DNA of 64,000 nt, from NCBI RefSeq assembly GCF_024628865.1, contig NZ_CP102385.1:136351-200350 (forward strand), given 5' to 3'. Below the pieces are notes generated by a model. It searched no databases and was not told where the DNA came from. It was given only the letters and a program-made list of their open reading frames with translations. Position numbers and translations under genes: made by a program. This stretch comes from Sphingopyxis sp. DBS4 (lineage in GTDB: Bacteria > Pseudomonadota > Alphaproteobacteria > Sphingomonadales > Sphingomonadaceae). Each line of letters starts with the position of its first letter. The stretch's first letter is position 1. Shown one piece after another: positions 28,439 to 35,942 of the stretch.

Positions 28439-29440
28439 ATGGACACCCTTCGCACCTTCAGCGATGAGCAATCCCGGCTTCTCGTCAACCTCCGGCAACG
28501 ATATGAAGCTTGGGTCGAAAACGAGCGCGCCCGGGCTGCGCTGCCTTATGATTTGCGCCGCAAGACCGTCGGCGAATATGAATATCTCTATCAGATCCAT
28601 GATCGTAGCGGAAACGGCAAGTCGCTCGGTCGCATGGACGCTGCGCGGGAAACCGAGTTCCAAGCTTATCGCGAACAAAAGGCCGAACTGAAAGAGCGCG
28701 GTGCATTACTGAGCTCCAGTCTTGCCGAAAGCGCCGCTCTGTACCGGGCTCTGCGTCTTCCCCTGCTTTCCAGCGATGCCGGTCCCATTCTTAGGGAATG
28801 CGACCGTCGCGATCTCCTTGGCTCGCACCTGCTCGTCGTCGGGACCAACGCGATCGCGGCCTATATGATTGAGGCCAATGGCTTCATGCTCCTGCCCGAC
28901 GAAACCGAAGATTTCGATCTCGCATGGGTTGCCGCCGCGCAAGAAGATTCCGAACAAACTGTCTGGCAGATGCTGAAGACCGTCGATCCAACATTCACGA
29001 TCAATAGCGAGCGTGATTTCCAAGCGCGGAATGCCCGTGCATATGAGGTCGAGTTGCTCGTAGCTCCGTCTCGTGCCGGAACACTGAGCGACCGCGATCA
29101 ACCGCGGCCGATACCTTTGGCAGAGCAGGAGTGGCTGCTGCTTGGTCGACCTGTCGACCAAGTCGTCGGCTGCCGCGATGGGTCCCCTGCCCGGATCGTG
29201 GCGCCGGACCCTCGATGGTTTGCGCTCCACAAACTCTGGATGTCAGAGCAGGCCAAGCGCAATCCTCTTAAGCGTCCGAAGGACCGTAAGCAGGGGCTGG
29301 CGCTGCTCGACGCCGTCGCCGAGGCCATGCCACACTATCCGCTCGATGAGGCATTCGAAGCGGCGATTCCGCCCGATTTGCAGGTGATTTTCGAGAATTG
29401 GCAGAAAAATACCACATCTGGACGCAAGTCCAAATGGTGA
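28439..29440 (+). CDS. GSU2403-type nucleotidyltransferase-fold protein
   Basis: 333 residues. The centre contains LLVVGTNAIAAYMIEANGFM and LPDETEDFDLAW, the G(T/S)xA...DxD pattern of the nucleotidyltransferase fold as in PF12281 (GSU2403-like). It has a helical N-terminus (YEAWVENERARAALPYDLRR) and a C-terminal domain with DPRWFALHKLWMSEQAKRNP plus PKDRKQGLALLDAVAE. Relatives are found near toxin-antitoxin and defence genes; the substrate is unknown. No canonical partner antitoxin is next to it. A perfect 11-bp inverted repeat lies directly before the ATG, with no Shine-Dalgarno visible. Confidence 0.75.
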   Translation: MDTLRTFSDEQSRLLVNLRQRYEAWVENERARAALPYDLRRKTVGEYEYLYQIHDRSGNGKSLGRMDAARETEFQAYREQKAELKERGALLSSSLAESAALYRALRLPLLSSDAGPILRECDRRDLLGSHLLVVGTNAIAAYMIEANGFMLLPDETEDFDLAWVAAAQEDSEQTVWQMLKTVDPTFTINSERDFQARNARAYEVELLVAPSRAGTLSDRDQPRPIPLAEQEWLLLGRPVDQVVGCRDGSPARIVAPDPRWFALHKLWMSEQAKRNPLKRPKDRKQGLALLDAVAEAMPHYPLDEAFEAAIPPDLQVIFENWQKNTTSGRKSKW

Positions 29441-29464: not shown

Positions 29465-29662
29465 TTATGCGGCTTTGTTTACCTCGTCGATCAGCGCCTG
29501 AACCTTCCCAATCGGTGTTTCGTCAATTGGCCGGATCGTCTCGCCGCAACCTTGGCATTCGACCGTTCGCCGCAAGCGCAACGTCCTGTAAGTGAGGTTC
29601 AGCGCGAAACCGCATACCGGGCAGTTCGTCTGCGCCCTGATGTCGTCCAGTTCGTTCGCCAT
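29465..29662 (-). CDS. Small zinc-ribbon protein
   Basis: 65 residues from ATG 29662: MANELDDIRAQTNCPVCGFA, then RTVECQGCGETIRPIDETPI. Two C-x2-C knuckles 22 residues apart form a likely zinc ribbon. Convergent with the nucleotidyltransferase gene and divergent from 29793. Function unknown; might bind nucleic acid or act as an antitoxin-like partner. The longer start at 29713 is less likely. Confidence 0.6.
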   Translation of the reverse strand: MANELDDIRAQTNCPVCGFALNLTYRTLRLRRTVECQGCGETIRPIDETPIGKVQALIDEVNKAA

Positions 29663-29792
29663 AGGCCATAATACCACACTGACGGTGCCCCGGCTACGCG
29701 GTGATGTCCTCACGCGGTGTTTCTGCCCGTCTATAATCGAATTACATCTTTAGCGACAGAAGCTGTTCACCAATTGCTGCTAGTGTGCGCCC

Positions 29793-30315: not shown

Positions 30316-30891
30316 CTAGTCGAACACCATCTTCCGGGTGACCGACGTCGTTCCCAAGGTTGCGTACGAACCGCCTTCCAAGAGCTTGGCTAAGCCGACG
30401 CAATTGAACCATTTGGCGTTGATGCCATTGTCCGCAAGATATTTGGTCACATAGGCCTTGGACCAACCCTGACTGGTCGATGCCAGCCGGTTGCCGCGAC
30501 CCACGATTGTCTCTTCTGGATTGCCGATCCCTATCGAAGAGCAACGGTAGGTGTCCGGGACAATCAGCTTTTCGCCCTCGAACCGGATCCCGCTGATGTT
30601 GCCATCGTTCGGCAGGGTCCTCACTTCCCCGGCAGAGATATCGATTGTTCGAGACATTTGCGCCGCATGAACGCATTCGTAGCCATCCTTAATCGACCAG
30701 CAGCGGGTCAGCGCGTCCGAAAAGCCTTCGACGCCCGATTGCGCTACAAAGCTCCCGTCTGCCACCTTCTCCCAAGTCACCGTCTTTTCAGCCGATCGCG
30801 GCATATCGACCGGGCGTGATAGGAAAATCCAAGCGCCATAACCGGCGGCGATGGTCGCGACGGTGGCCACCCCGATCCAAAGCTTGCTCAT
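30316..30891 (-). CDS. Membrane-anchored protein, third gene of PLD operon
   Basis: 191 residues with one N-terminal membrane segment (LWIGVATVATIAAGYGAWIF, residues 4-23) and an extracytoplasmic part with four Cys (RCWSIKDGYECVH, DTYRCSSIG, FNCVGL), suggesting disulfides in the periplasm. The ATG overlaps the stop of the PLD-like gene (30888-30891), so it is translated with it. No family recognised. In a defence setting it could be a membrane effector or a sensor. Confidence 0.65.
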   Translation of the reverse strand: MSKLWIGVATVATIAAGYGAWIFLSRPVDMPRSAEKTVTWEKVADGSFVAQSGVEGFSDALTRCWSIKDGYECVHAAQMSRTIDISAGEVRTLPNDGNISGIRFEGEKLIVPDTYRCSSIGIGNPEETIVGRGNRLASTSQGWSKAYVTKYLADNGINAKWFNCVGLAKLLEGGSYATLGTTSVTRKMVFD

Positions 30892-33257
30892 TCGCCCGCC
30901 GCCCTCTCCGCACCAACCGCCGCGTCTTCCGCCGCGATGATATTATCCGCGTTCGCCCGCAACCCCAGTCTGATTCCGATCGAGCGATCCAAGCCAGCGC
31001 GGATGTCCGCGGCGATGGCGCCAGTCAGCTCGGCGCTCGTCAGGCCTAGCAGTTTGATCATCAGCACTCGAAGCTTGGAGACATATGGCAGGAAGTCACG
31101 ATTTGCACGATTGTTGGGCATCAGCGCCTCGATGGTATCTAGCGCCCAAAGCGAGGTTACCCAGCATTCCATAAAGTCGACAGGCATTTCGACATATTCT
31201 CGCGCCATCATGAGCCTGGAGATAGCCGGCGATCGACTGCCGAAAAATGCGACGAGCGCCCGTACGACCAGCCGGGGCCATGATTGGGGTGCGCTCGAGC
31301 AGTCGAGCCCCTTCGGGAGGTCGTTACAGCGAGCCTTGTAAAGCAGGAGCAGGATCCAATAGCGAAGACGGAGGACCTCGGCTGATCCGATGGCACCCTC
31401 TCCATCTTCGATTTCCTCCGCATAGGCCCAGATATAATATTCGAACTCTTTGGCATCTACTGTCCGAAGCTCGACAGGCTCCCGATCAGCCGAAGTCGAC
31501 GGGGCGGGTTCGACGTCGGCATCCGGCATGTCATCCATGTCATCCGCTTCGTCGCCCATATCGAGCCAGCCGTCATCGTCGCGATCGGTGCTGGGCTCGC
31601 CGCGCCCGGTCAACAGATTTAGAAAACCCCGAATGCTGTCGGTGTAGGTGCCGGCCAGGCTATTGGCTCCATTCCCGCCCCCCCGCGTAGCGCCCGGGCG
31701 CGCTTCGGTGAATTCCTCATAGCTGAGATTTGTTGGATCGGCTCCGGCTCCGACTTCTTTCGGATCTCGCGGACGAGCGCTTGCGATCACGGCACCCTCT
31801 TTGTTCTCCGAAAAATCGGCGCGGACCAGAGTTTCGAATGCTTCGTGCATCCAAAGCTCAAAATCAGTTCCATCGGTGAAGTGGGAGAGCGCCCGAGCGA
31901 CGCGGCCGCTGGCTGCTTCCCGGCGACTTTCCCTGAGCGCCTGCCGGTGCGAAACGTGGGCCGTTGTCGAGATATATTCGCCGCGGACAATGCGTGCAAA
32001 GTAAAGCTTCTGCTGAAGTTCCGAGGCGATTGACACAACTCGTCGAGCGCCAACGCTCGCAAACGACGTCGCCGGAACGTCTGCCACCACCCTGCCGGTG
32101 CGGTCGAGAAGCTGGACGGCTCCATCCCCTGCGTCGCCGATGGGCGGCTGCCAGAATAGCGAGCCTTGATCCAGTTCGAAGGAGCCAGGACGCCGAGCCG
32201 CCAAGGCCACCAGCGGGATTTCGGGCCGAGCTTCGCGGTCCGCTAAATCGGAGAGCTCAAGCCGATCAGCGTCAATCCAGCGATCTAGCGCTAACGCTTC
32301 GACTGCGGCCCCCGCTGGCAATCGGCGATAGATGCATGCCTCTGCGTTGCTGCCGACGCTGGTCAGTGCCGCCGTCGTACAATTCGCGCTCCCCAATAGG
32401 ACATGATCATGATGCTTCGTCATCGCGACGAAGATTTTCGCATGAGTGAAGCGCGATGACGGGTAATCAAGATCTACGAGCCGCACCCTTTTTGCGAAGG
32501 CTGCTTCGATGGGGAATTCGTGTTGTTCGCTGTCGATCGGAAGAATGATCTCTTTAGGCGAGAGTTCGGCCGCCAATTCAGACAGGGCGCTGAGGTTGTT
32601 ATCCCAGTAGGGACTGACAATGATCAGCCTCCGCACCTTCTCGTCGCCGATCCATTCCACGAACCGGTCGGCAATCCCGTGATCTGATGATGAAGGAAGG
32701 AAGCCAATTGCAGAACCGTCCCCCAGTTCTTTAAGCGGTGCCCCGACCGGCCCTTCCAGCCAAGGCGCACGTTCCCGGGCCCAGCGTAGCGCATCTCGCG
32801 CTGGGCACGCCTCATCAGGCACCAGCGAGTGCAAATACTGCCAGATAGCGCGGAGCAGTTCTCGTTCGGGCCCCTCTTCACTGCCAGACTCGATCTCAAT
32901 GGCGATCTCCACATTCCCGCCGAGCCCGGCAGCAGTAGCATTGGCCGAACTGACAAATGCCCTTCCCGTCTCGCGACCGAGTTGCAGAATGATCTTGGGG
33001 TGGAAGATGCCGTCGCTCGCTGGCGGACTATGAAGCGCGTAATCTCGGCCTAGTGCGATGGGTAACCTCGAGCCGTCGGAAAGGGCCATTGCCACCATGC
33101 GATCGTCGGCGATCATGAGAAGATTGGTGGCGCCGCTTGCCATGATCTGCGGCAGCAGTATTTCTTCGACCGCGGCGAATTCAACCGCGAACGTGGTCGC
33201 GATGGCGCTGTGAAAGGGCTTGCGGGGTCGCCGACCCAGCCGATCAGGCAGTTTCAT
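30888..33257 (-). CDS. Two-motif PLD-superfamily (HKD-type) nuclease-like protein
   Basis: 789 residues. Two phospholipase D-type half-sites are seen: FHPKIILQLG (H86-x-K88) with FVSSANAT downstream (103-108), and FTHAKIFVAM (H272-x-K274) with LLGSANCT (288-294). The HxK plus (G/S)SAN pairs match PLD-superfamily nucleases such as those in restriction and defence systems; the usual downstream Asp is not conserved in place. A long C-terminal portion has an acidic linker (MGDEADDMDDMPDADVEPAP) and a helical domain (VLRLRYWILLLLYKARCNDL). It is coupled by ATGA to the genes on both sides. Best reading: the nuclease component of a three-gene system. Not a match to a named system that I can recall. 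Confidence 0.75.
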   Translation of the reverse strand: MKLPDRLGRRPRKPFHSAIATTFAVEFAAVEEILLPQIMASGATNLLMIADDRMVAMALSDGSRLPIALGRDYALHSPPASDGIFHPKIILQLGRETGRAFVSSANATAAGLGGNVEIAIEIESGSEEGPERELLRAIWQYLHSLVPDEACPARDALRWARERAPWLEGPVGAPLKELGDGSAIGFLPSSSDHGIADRFVEWIGDEKVRRLIIVSPYWDNNLSALSELAAELSPKEIILPIDSEQHEFPIEAAFAKRVRLVDLDYPSSRFTHAKIFVAMTKHHDHVLLGSANCTTAALTSVGSNAEACIYRRLPAGAAVEALALDRWIDADRLELSDLADREARPEIPLVALAARRPGSFELDQGSLFWQPPIGDAGDGAVQLLDRTGRVVADVPATSFASVGARRVVSIASELQQKLYFARIVRGEYISTTAHVSHRQALRESRREAASGRVARALSHFTDGTDFELWMHEAFETLVRADFSENKEGAVIASARPRDPKEVGAGADPTNLSYEEFTEARPGATRGGGNGANSLAGTYTDSIRGFLNLLTGRGEPSTDRDDDGWLDMGDEADDMDDMPDADVEPAPSTSADREPVELRTVDAKEFEYYIWAYAEEIEDGEGAIGSAEVLRLRYWILLLLYKARCNDLPKGLDCSSAPQSWPRLVVRALVAFFGSRSPAISRLMMAREYVEMPVDFMECWVTSLWALDTIEALMPNNRANRDFLPYVSKLRVLMIKLLGLTSAELTGAIAADIRAGLDRSIGIRLGLRANADNIIAAEDAAVGAERAAGE

Positions 33258-34768
33258 GCGGCCGCCTCCAGCAGGGAACGCGCGCGCGCGGTCGGGCCAT
33301 CTTCGTTCAGGAGGTGAATGTCTTCGAGAAACTGGATCGCCGGCACCAGACGAGGAGTCGTCGCGACTGGCTGATAGCCCTTGAGGTAGATCAATCGACC
33401 ATCCCGTGCCTCGAACAGGAAGGTATAGTCTCGTTGCCTGCGGAGCTTTTGCATCGCGACCCAGCTATGACGTCGAACCACACGCTCGACTACATAGTCG
33501 GCGATCTTCTCGATGACGGTCTGATCTTCCTTCAAGGCCAGCCAATTCAGCTCGGTGCGGAGCGAATGCGCCATACCGCGCGCAGGAAAGCCCTGATCGA
33601 CGCGGCCCGCTAGGTCGGGACGCTCCAACGTTCGTTGATGGAGCGCTGCCATCAACTGAATGGCGGCTATGGCCTTCTCGTCAGGCGCGCCGCGCGAATT
33701 TGTCAGCTGGTTCCAGGTCGCTCGGAAGTCATATTTCGCGCTGTCGATCTTGGATCGGAATTCGCCCCAAGATCTAGCGAAACCCGTCTCGGCTTGCGAC
33801 ACGAGATCGTCGACGACCTGCGCACGAATCTCAGGAATCGATAGGCCGCCATCGGAGGTATTGAGCAGCGAGATAGCCCAAGCCAACAGCGATGCGGCCG
33901 CCACCTGCATCAGGTCCTGGCAGTTGTAGACCTCCCAGTTCAGTCGCTGAGCTTCGAGTTCTAAGGGCAGAAAGTCCGCGGGCGGATTGAAGAGGTGCCA
34001 TCGGACGTCTTCCGGTCCGGGGCTCTCTGCGATGGCACGAGCCGTTTCGAGGACGAGGCGCAGAGATGCACTTCGGCTGCGCGCGTTCTCTGAGGCAGTG
34101 TCTGCGTCTGCGAATAGGAGCATTTCGTAAAATTCGCACTCGGCGCTGCCCTCTTCGATTTCGGATGGAGCAATTCCGCTGAGGCGCTCGAGATCGGGAA
34201 CGCTTACGCTGGCATCCGCGATCTTCTTCTTGAGCAGCTTCGCAACGTCCGGGCCGATTGCGTTGGCGAACAAGATCGCGGCTCGTTTGCCGAGCTCGCG
34301 CGTGGCGACCTGAATGCCATGCTTGTTGTAGGTGAAGAGCCCCAGTTCTTCCATTTGGGAAAAGTATGCGCCACCGAAGACGCCGAGCGCTTGGCGCAGA
34401 TATAGTTTCTGCGATCGATCGGTAGTGGCGGCTGCAGCGAAATCGATGACCTTCTTGCCGGCGGCAAGCCTTCCGTTCGCCCATTCGGTTCCCCCGACGC
34501 CAGTCTCATTGGCATAGGCAGCGACAAGGGCATAGAGCGCCTCAGCTCTGCGGAGCCAAGTTCGCCACGCCTCGAAATCGTCGGAAGCTCCGCTGCGTGC
34601 ATAAGTTTCGCTGACCCAGCAATAGTAGCAGTAGTAGCGCATGCGAAGGGTAACATTGCTGATTCCCGGCAAAAGCGCTTGGTACAGGAGGACACCGCTA
34701 TTTTGAATGCCAAGGGGGTCTAGGCCGCGCTTCTCCGCCTTCTCCGTCCACTGAGGTAACAGATCCAA
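33254..34768 (-). CDS. First gene of PLD operon, DUF6361-like helical protein
   Basis: 504 residues from a TTG at 34768 (G-rich stretch upstream). The N-terminus (MDLLPQWTEKAEKRGLDPLG, then LYQALLPGISNVTLRMRYYC, YYCW) recalls the DUF6361-type opening 'LGI..i.d...LFPG.st..tR.RY..f.pW'; this similarity is from memory. The rest is helical with an RNase/nuclease-free appearance. A C-terminal stretch, VERVVRRHSWVAMQKLRRQR followed by DYTFLFEARDGRLIYLKGYQ, looks like a small beta-rich domain. Its stop overlaps the start of the PLD-like gene. Probably a recognition or scaffold subunit. A 10-bp palindrome lies just upstream. Confidence 0.68.
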   Translation of the reverse strand: MDLLPQWTEKAEKRGLDPLGIQNSGVLLYQALLPGISNVTLRMRYYCYYCWVSETYARSGASDDFEAWRTWLRRAEALYALVAAYANETGVGGTEWANGRLAAGKKVIDFAAAATTDRSQKLYLRQALGVFGGAYFSQMEELGLFTYNKHGIQVATRELGKRAAILFANAIGPDVAKLLKKKIADASVSVPDLERLSGIAPSEIEEGSAECEFYEMLLFADADTASENARSRSASLRLVLETARAIAESPGPEDVRWHLFNPPADFLPLELEAQRLNWEVYNCQDLMQVAAASLLAWAISLLNTSDGGLSIPEIRAQVVDDLVSQAETGFARSWGEFRSKIDSAKYDFRATWNQLTNSRGAPDEKAIAAIQLMAALHQRTLERPDLAGRVDQGFPARGMAHSLRTELNWLALKEDQTVIEKIADYVVERVVRRHSWVAMQKLRRQRDYTFLFEARDGRLIYLKGYQPVATTPRLVPAIQFLEDIHLLNEDGPTARARSLLEAAA

Positions 34769-34999: not shown

Positions 35000-35671
35000 T
35001 TAGTTGGTGATCGCGAGTTCAATGAGGTTGCGGCTGATTTCTCTTGAGCGGGCGACGAGGCCGCGTGTTTGGTCACGAAGCATAAGTTGGCCGATAATGC
35101 CTTCGACATAGGCCGGATTGGTTTTATCGATAACTTCCAGCGCGTTTTTGCATTTGTCGAGCGGGCATTGCTTGAGGGCAGACACCACATATTCCGACCC
35201 GAAATGCTCGGAAACAGCGGCTAGATCGAACATATCACGAGGTTGGAAGCTCCAGCCGCGATAGAATACCTTCTTGGCGATGATTTCCGCTGGCGTCTCC
35301 AAAGCTACTGCATGCCCTCGTACATCGGTCGCTGTGGTCGGGTCTGGAAGGATATTATCGCAGCAAATGAAGTCGATTTCGCCCAAATTCTCATATGCGA
35401 GCTTCAGGACGTCCGCGCCGGCTTGGTAGCTATCGGGAGCTTGGTCGAGCTTGATACCCTGCGTCTCGGGATTCAAGAACGGTAGATATTGCGGATCGTC
35501 CAGAAACAGATCGATATCGTGGCTCTCGCGATGATCGATCTGCAACATCAGGGCAGTCCCGCCGCCGAAGCTCCATTGGGGCGAAAAACCATTTTTTTCG
35601 TCGAAATGCTTCAGGATGCCGATGGCGAGATCGAAGAGGACCGGCCATTCGCTTGGCCGCTTCTCGGGCAC
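35000..35671 (-). CDS. AbiEii/AbiGii-type nucleotidyltransferase (toxin-like)
   Basis: 223 residues from a GTG at 35671. FGGGTALMLQIDHRESHDID followed by LFLDD gives the nucleotidyltransferase signature GG[G]TALxL...R.S.DIDLF of PF08843 (AbiEii). A C-terminal helical region has YRGWSFQPRDMFDLAAVSEH, also typical. In AbiE systems this enzyme is the toxin and modifies tRNA or protein. No AbiEi antitoxin is present; instead an 88-residue gene ends 4 bp upstream. An in-frame ATG at 35749 would overlap that gene by 74 bp and gives an Arg/Ser-rich shadow N-terminus, so the GTG is preferred. Confidence 0.82.
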   Translation of the reverse strand: MPEKRPSEWPVLFDLAIGILKHFDEKNGFSPQWSFGGGTALMLQIDHRESHDIDLFLDDPQYLPFLNPETQGIKLDQAPDSYQAGADVLKLAYENLGEIDFICCDNILPDPTTATDVRGHAVALETPAEIIAKKVFYRGWSFQPRDMFDLAAVSEHFGSEYVVSALKQCPLDKCKNALEVIDKTNPAYVEGIIGQLMLRDQTRGLVARSREISRNLIELAITN

Positions 35672-35675
35672 GGCG

Positions 35676-35942
35676 TCAGGCCGCCAGCGGCAATGCGTAA
35701 CCCGAAAGCTGCGAGACCTGCTCTGCGACTTGGCTAGCCAGTTGCTCATTCACATTCATGGCCCACATGAACTGCTTCTGGACCTGAAGCGGAACTTCCG
35801 AGAAAAATGCGAAAACCGGCGCATTGAAGTCAATCGCGCTCTGGGAATCGATGATCATAGCGGCAAGCTGATGTGCGGAAACAGCCGCCCCGTAAGGGGC
35901 GTTCACCGTCGTAAGCACTTGAGTTACAGCGTTTGCCATCAT
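35676..35942 (-). CDS. 88-residue partner of AbiEii-like gene
   Basis: 88 residues (MMANAVTQVLTTVNAPYGAA, then VSAHQLAAMIIDSQSAIDFN). Helical, no DNA-binding motif recognised. It ends 4 bp before the GTG of the AbiEii-like gene, so it is the first gene of the pair and may be a non-canonical antitoxin. ATG 35942 or 35939 possible. Function unknown. Confidence 0.55.
   Translation of the reverse strand: MMANAVTQVLTTVNAPYGAAVSAHQLAAMIIDSQSAIDFNAPVFAFFSEVPLQVQKQFMWAMNVNEQLASQVAEQVSQLSGYALPLAA

Follow-up and report, generated by a model that had tools for sequence, protein, structure and literature searches.

The nearest catalogued set to the genes described here is Zac, which is listed in PADLOC-DB as a candidate set of ZacA (PDLC03828), ZacB (PDLC03829) and ZacC (PDLC03830), and whose name may stem from a 2024 preprint by Payne and others or from PADLOC itself. 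Across 289 genomes of the class Alphaproteobacteria we observed some match to ZacB in 30, while six carried a full-length match (E-values 7e-117 to 4e-173). DNA around these six was fetched and two of the loci (L083 and L086) were scanned with PADLOC. In both, the genes follow the order ZacA, ZacB, ZacC with overlapping ends. ZacA has 392 and 412 residues (aa) and ZacB 618 and 617 aa, respectively; ZacC, a DEAD helicase, is 1059 aa long (in L086 the contig ends within it). Here we examined a 64,000-nucleotide stretch of Sphingopyxis sp. DBS4 (NZ_CP102385.1; the window, to which all coordinates refer), where a preliminary description had proposed a three-gene defence operon built around a phospholipase D (PLD) superfamily protein. 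We labelled the genes A, B and C, and found that the real unit is A-B, two genes inherited as one. By sequence comparison, the most fitting description of A-B is a helicase-less set distantly related to the Zac core. Judging from its predicted fold, its genomic company and its relation to Zac, the likeliest job of this mobile module is probably defence against phage or other incoming DNA.

The features of the locus are as follows.

33254..34768, minus strand: gene A, 504 aa with a TTG start (open reading frame (ORF) list), first gene of the two-gene core
30888..33257, minus strand: gene B, 789 aa with an ATG start (ORF list), a PLD-superfamily protein with two half-sites
30316..30891, minus strand: gene C, 191 aa with an ATG start, an N-terminal hydrophobic anchor and four Cys; a lineage-restricted passenger
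33254..33257, minus strand: A/B overlap, 4 bp, ATGA
30888..30891, minus strand: B/C overlap, 4 bp, ATGA
34484..34723, minus strand: A residues 16-95, conserved block common to ZacA (PADLOC ZacA match, hhalign, and our own hidden Markov model (HMM) alignment)
32223..33257, minus strand: B residues 1-345, predicted Tdp1/PLD3-like domain containing both PLD halves (AlphaFold and PDB comparison)
32940..33002, minus strand: first half-site of B, H86-x-K88 ... S-S-A-N106 (motif scan and conservation)
32382..32444, minus strand: second half-site of B, H272-x-K274 ... G-S-A-N292 (motif scan and conservation)

Conservation of the A-B pair

The three minus-strand ORFs were confirmed to be joined by 4-bp ATGA overlaps at both junctions. 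The proposed three-gene system was not supported: A and B form a conserved operon, and C was observed beside them only in related Sphingopyxis plasmids. Database searches, in which about 8000 candidates were scored for each protein and the best 120 listed, returned at least 147 relatives of B and at least 501 of A. When genome contigs were scanned with the A profile, 80 stretches matched and 55 of them encode a relative; the set of 60 loci with both genes was drawn from these genome-contig stretches, six plasmid loci and three short loci. In all 60, A was followed by B, adjacent and on one strand. The set is partly redundant (L007 is near-identical to or the same as L014-L016, and probably L043 likewise with L044 and L003 with L048). 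A 4-bp NTGA overlap in frame of B was observed in 55 of the 60, the exceptions being L004, L011 and L012, which have a different small overlap, L050, where B is fragmented, and L066, a short degenerate contig. Three loci had A without B (L031, L063, L065); in each of them the A frame, short or broken, runs up against the contig end, which left no room to look for B. L006 and L068 gave only weak or short A matches. Conversely, eight loci were picked by hand from two genome searches with B, among the stronger hits and leaving aside weak short ones; A was directly upstream in all eight, of which at least L106 and L112 repeat earlier loci. Pairwise divergence of A closely followed that of B (Mantel r 0.98, with none of 2000 permutations as high); the comparison used 51 rows, the window among them, and excluded seven loci in which a gene is partial as well as three near-identical copies.

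The PLD protein and its helical partner

We found exactly two HxK motifs in B, H86-P-K88 (SSAN at 103-106) and H272-A-K274 (GSAN at 289-292), with a spacing of about 15 residues from HxK to SSAN or GSAN. Two such composite HxK...(S/G)SAN motifs occurred in none of 10000 shuffles of B, and the H, K and N of both half-sites were conserved in all 57 B proteins that have residues at those positions. Pfam matched B to PLDc_2 (E 2e-6, 28.1 bits, barely above the cut-off of 27), and the AlphaFold model of residues 1-345 resembles two-site PLD enzymes, e.g. Tdp1 and PLD3/4, in a PDB fold comparison. B thus carries the HxK...SxN half-sites within a PLD fold that mark the superfamily, the fold being taken from the model, and the earlier claim of two PLD half-sites in a 789-aa protein was borne out. 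The chain continues for about 440 residues C-terminal to the PLD domain.

Gene A encodes a protein that is almost wholly helical in its AlphaFold model (predicted local distance difference test (pLDDT) 83.8), as had been proposed. Its most conserved parts in a 22-row alignment were an N-terminal D-x-LG...PG-x-S...R-x-RY...W block and a C-terminal basic block. A sequence search of the PDB detected no relative of A, a fold comparison gave none that was convincing, and Pfam gave nothing significant on A or C. The opening of A had been called DUF6361-like; DUF6361 did not match A in Pfam at E <= 1, but the hint was pertinent because the PADLOC ZacA model matches A at residues 16-95 (80 positions, E 9.3e-4) and two genuine ZacA proteins are themselves DUF6361 (E 4.9e-89 and 2.5e-15). 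Three of four distant A proteins matched the same ZacA model (E 7e-4 to 2e-3).

Relation to Zac

The PADLOC ZacB model matched B with E 1.5e-16, its best stretch covering only 114 of 586 profile positions (220-333), and hhalign aligned B with ZacB over 339 columns (E 2e-5, probability 77%). When our own profiles were applied, all four ZacB and three of four ZacA proteins ranked above 716 neighbour proteins and 800 shuffled decoys. B reads as a distant relative of ZacB and A as a very distant relative of ZacA. We call the pair helicase-less because ZacC had no match in the window's whole genome at E <= 0.001 and, near A-B in 70 loci, gave only matches of 43 and 57 residues, in L011 and L028. 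The term 'undescribed' needs qualifying: the pair is divergent and lacks ZacC, but has in Zac a nearest catalogued relative.

Searches of an open-licence PMC collection found no paper with DUF6361, nor with ZacA or ZacB in the defence sense, and none for Zac together with Zorya or PADLOC, or with defence terms. A term search of three articles citing the 2024 preprint by Payne and others (PMC12988326, PMC13356809, PMC13092281) found no 'zac'. Upstream of canonical ZacA, a large gene (UvrD-like by PADLOC in L083) and a 424-aa gene were observed in two loci (L083:9260-13932, L081:9259-13931), and these are perhaps part of a larger Zac operon.

Genomic company of A-B

Some neighbourhoods resembled defence loci. 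On a Myroides plasmid (L012:823-14695) the pair is flanked by HsdS and HsdR, both of a type I restriction operon. On Polaromonas pPNAP01 it comes after Zorya genes, among which the EH-signature gene is ZorC (E 1.3e-223); in Roseovarius, a type I system is no more than a few kb away. A Caulobacteraceae metagenome-assembled genome (L033:101-13869) carries a 1259-aa gene, DUF1156, DUF499, A and B on the same strand and nearly abutting, and these five genes look like one large operon. Related Walker A proteins of 1149 and 1138 aa are encoded directly upstream of A-B in Rhodobacteraceae IMCC 34051 (L038:2174-5623) and Ruegeria conchae (L047:6517-9933), respectively; it is possible that these are SF1 helicases and candidate partners. 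On other plasmids no such clear partner was seen, neither on pPNAP03 nor, except for an AbiEii gene, on pSfKp5.2; in Sphingobium CAP-1 a SNF2 gene and a hypothetical gene lie upstream. HsdR-like proteins were observed in 8 of 56 loci, with SWI2_SNF2 and T1R_D3-like domains confirmed in all eight and HSDR_N in six. The 50 non-redundant genome-contig loci (0.92 Mb) account for six of the eight, against 0.39 expected at the HSDR_N density of only those 63 of 289 genomes having HSDR_N (Poisson 3.6e-6, or 7e-4 if only 4 count). The suggestion of a defence-rich setting held for some neighbourhoods, with HsdR-like genes at these loci and Zorya or DUF499-DUF1156 at single ones. Helicase and methylase partners, considered absent in the preliminary description, were not seen in the window, but in a few other loci A-B abuts HsdR or DUF499/DUF1156 genes.

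In the window itself, an AbiEii-type nucleotidyltransferase gene (35000-35942; PF08843, E 1.1e-11) lies near A, with an 88-aa ORF just upstream of it that gave weak Pfam matches only; both are annotated beside A-B-C in pSfKp5.2 too. On the other side are an NTP_transf_8 nucleotidyltransferase (28439-29440; PF12281, E 1.3e-32), with a gene annotated as GSU2403 family at a like position in pSfKp5.2, and an 82-aa protein (29465-29713) of CxxC...CxxC zinc-ribbon look, with weak Pfam matches only.

Distribution and mobility

A-B is patchy and mobile. Within the genus, B matched at E <= 0.001 in 10 of 80 genomes (7 below 1e-100), one of which (G294) has two B genes 85% and 58% identical to that of the window. 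Across a phylum sample B matched at the same threshold in 9 of 398 genomes, three of the matches being short and weak, and A in 5 of the 289 genomes of the class, one weakly. Only 16 of 72,556 plasmid records matched B, one over 80% of its length, with partial matches including Myroides and Prevotella; five of the 16 are conjugative and five mobilizable. A-B in the window adjoins a tra block. Its traF-H-G part recurs at 91% identity in Sphingopyxis granuli pRW412b, but there the interval from traG to mobF is filled by different genes and the plasmid search matched neither B nor C, so the window operon is cargo.

Gene C

The C protein is hydrophobic in a single N-terminal stretch, at about residues 4-24; its four Cys (64, 73, 117, 164) all lie after that stretch and are predicted to face the periplasm. 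One database search gave 14 relatives, none below 79% identity. Among the plasmid records a close C was found only in Sphingopyxis fribergensis pSfKp5.2, adjoining A-B, and among genome-contig loci only in L014-L016, which carry the same plasmid-type region. A distant relative (L013:6902-7567; 25% identity, four Cys kept) was observed on the mobilizable plasmid Sphingobium RAC03 pBSY17_4, adjoining an annotated ParD/RelE-ParE pair; A-B is absent from its surroundings, and the plasmid search gave no match to B there. C is not part of the core but a local passenger or accessory carried by Sphingopyxis plasmids; the anchor stretch and Cys of the proposed membrane component are present, but C is not a general feature of A-B loci.

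Proposed function and alternatives

We propose that B is a one-chain PLD phosphodiesterase in which H86/K88/N106 and H272/K274/N292 would form a single active site. PLD enzymes act via a covalent phosphohistidine, and by analogy the same is expected of B, which probably cuts or trims nucleic acid. A would be the constant helical partner, probably binding DNA or another protein and targeting or restraining B. Of the earlier arrangement of sensor or scaffold, nuclease and membrane component, the membrane component is not general to A-B loci. The operon, linked divergence, conserved sites, PLD fold, partly defence-like company and lack of ZacC are computed features, whereas a nuclease rather than another PLD activity for B, the role of A, and defence are inferred from fold, company and the relation to Zac.

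Several observations weigh against this defence reading or its Zac relation. PLD folds also serve lipid and polyphosphate enzymes, and vaccinia F13, phospholipase D and phosphatidylserine synthase scored like Tdp1 against the B model, with polyphosphate kinase nearly so. The link between B and ZacB comes largely from the PLD part, while that between A and ZacA was weak in hhalign (48 columns, E 0.0017, probability 15.5%); the fourth ZacA fell among the decoys of our own A profile (E 1.5), and one of the four distant A proteins had no ZacA match at 0.01. Linked divergence of A and B is also expected from plain vertical descent. Most pairs look free-standing, since no same-strand gene of at least 500 aa was within 150 bp in 42 of 54 loci, and the top Pfam family was common to at most 4 of 104 and at most 3 of 71 neighbour proteins scanned. 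The HsdR comparison given above serves as a guide only: its expectation uses the HSDR_N profile in Alphaproteobacteria, whereas the HsdR-like proteins at the loci were defined by a BLAST cluster in mixed Proteobacteria, and kinship among the loci makes their counts non-independent.

That B acts on lipids or the envelope together with a helical partner, and has no part in defence, would suit the fold scores above but is very improbable: the highest 19-residue hydropathy was 1.49 in A and 1.53 in B, versus 1.72 in the anchor of C, restriction genes lie near some pairs, and the best catalogue matches of B were the ZacB, DrmC and PDC-M27B profiles. The constant overlapping linkage and matched divergence, together with the conjugative and mobilizable plasmids among the B matches, would fit a toxin-antitoxin or addiction pair, in which a toxic nuclease B is held by A for plasmid or island persistence and anti-phage effects are secondary. 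We regard this as improbable, since A and B are far larger than the proteins of usual toxin-antitoxin pairs and HsdR-like genes lie near the pair on genome contigs too. Somewhat less improbable, though still unlikely, is that A-B is a divergent true member of Zac whose helicase is supplied in trans by the host or a neighbouring translocase. The ZacB and ZacA matches and the shared gene order with overlapping ends favour this, as do the few loci that abut different ATPases, i.e. HsdR (L012, L062), Walker A proteins (L038, L047) and DUF499 (L033); against it stand the lack of a ZacC match in the same genome, the two short ZacC matches among 70 loci, the lack of a DUF6361 match for A, and the free-standing majority of pairs.

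A tentative extension, doubtful but possible, is that A-B is a plug-in adaptor-nuclease cassette that couples to different DNA translocases or acts alone. The motors would be the Zac helicase, HsdR, SF1-like helicases, DUF499-DUF1156 and Zorya, those outside Zac being seen at single or few loci, and the commonest form would be the free-standing one with no motor, as in the window. Many sensing motors would then draw on a single nuclease-adaptor pair, and the natural series of free-standing, Zac, HsdR-, Zorya- and DUF499-associated forms could be used for testing the exchangeability of defence nucleases. Should A-B defend, it would be a compact, helicase-free two-gene PLD system with relatives from Alphaproteobacteria to Bacteroidota, which the nearest catalogue entry, a helicase-bearing set, would not cover, and it would let one ask how a PLD enzyme separates foreign from own DNA without a motor or methylase.

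Comparison with known systems

B shares the PLD half-site motif with DrmC of DISARM and matches it weakly (E 4.1e-7 with PADLOC; 4.1e-6 with NCBIfam NF038319, at 26.5 bits against a curated cut-off of 133). The matched DrmC profiles span 153-381 positions, whereas B has two HxK sites in one long chain. The DISARM partner DrmB (MZB, formerly DUF1998; PF09369) had no match in the window's genome at E <= 0.001. Of the PADLOC candidate PDC-M27 (M27B, M27C), M27B matches B (E 4.8e-5) and a Sphingobium relative (E 1e-7), but the match to B is weak and partial; its helicase model PDLC04554 (M27C) had no match in the window's genome at E <= 0.001, the other M27C model, PDLC04556, not having been searched. 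Tdp1, PLD3/PLD4 and the PLD restriction enzymes SauUSI, NgoAVII and BfiI share the PLD fold with B by model comparison, while B differs in its extra C-terminal residues and in its partner A, and at E <= 1 its sequence matched none of the PDB chains. Zac differs from the pair in its ZacC helicase, not found with the window pair, and in size, A having 504 aa and no DUF6361 match against 392-412 aa for ZacA, and B 789 aa against 617-618 for ZacB. The two share a helical A followed by a PLD protein B with overlapping ends, as in ZacA-ZacB, an N-terminal block common to A and ZacA, and the PLD half-sites common to B and ZacB.
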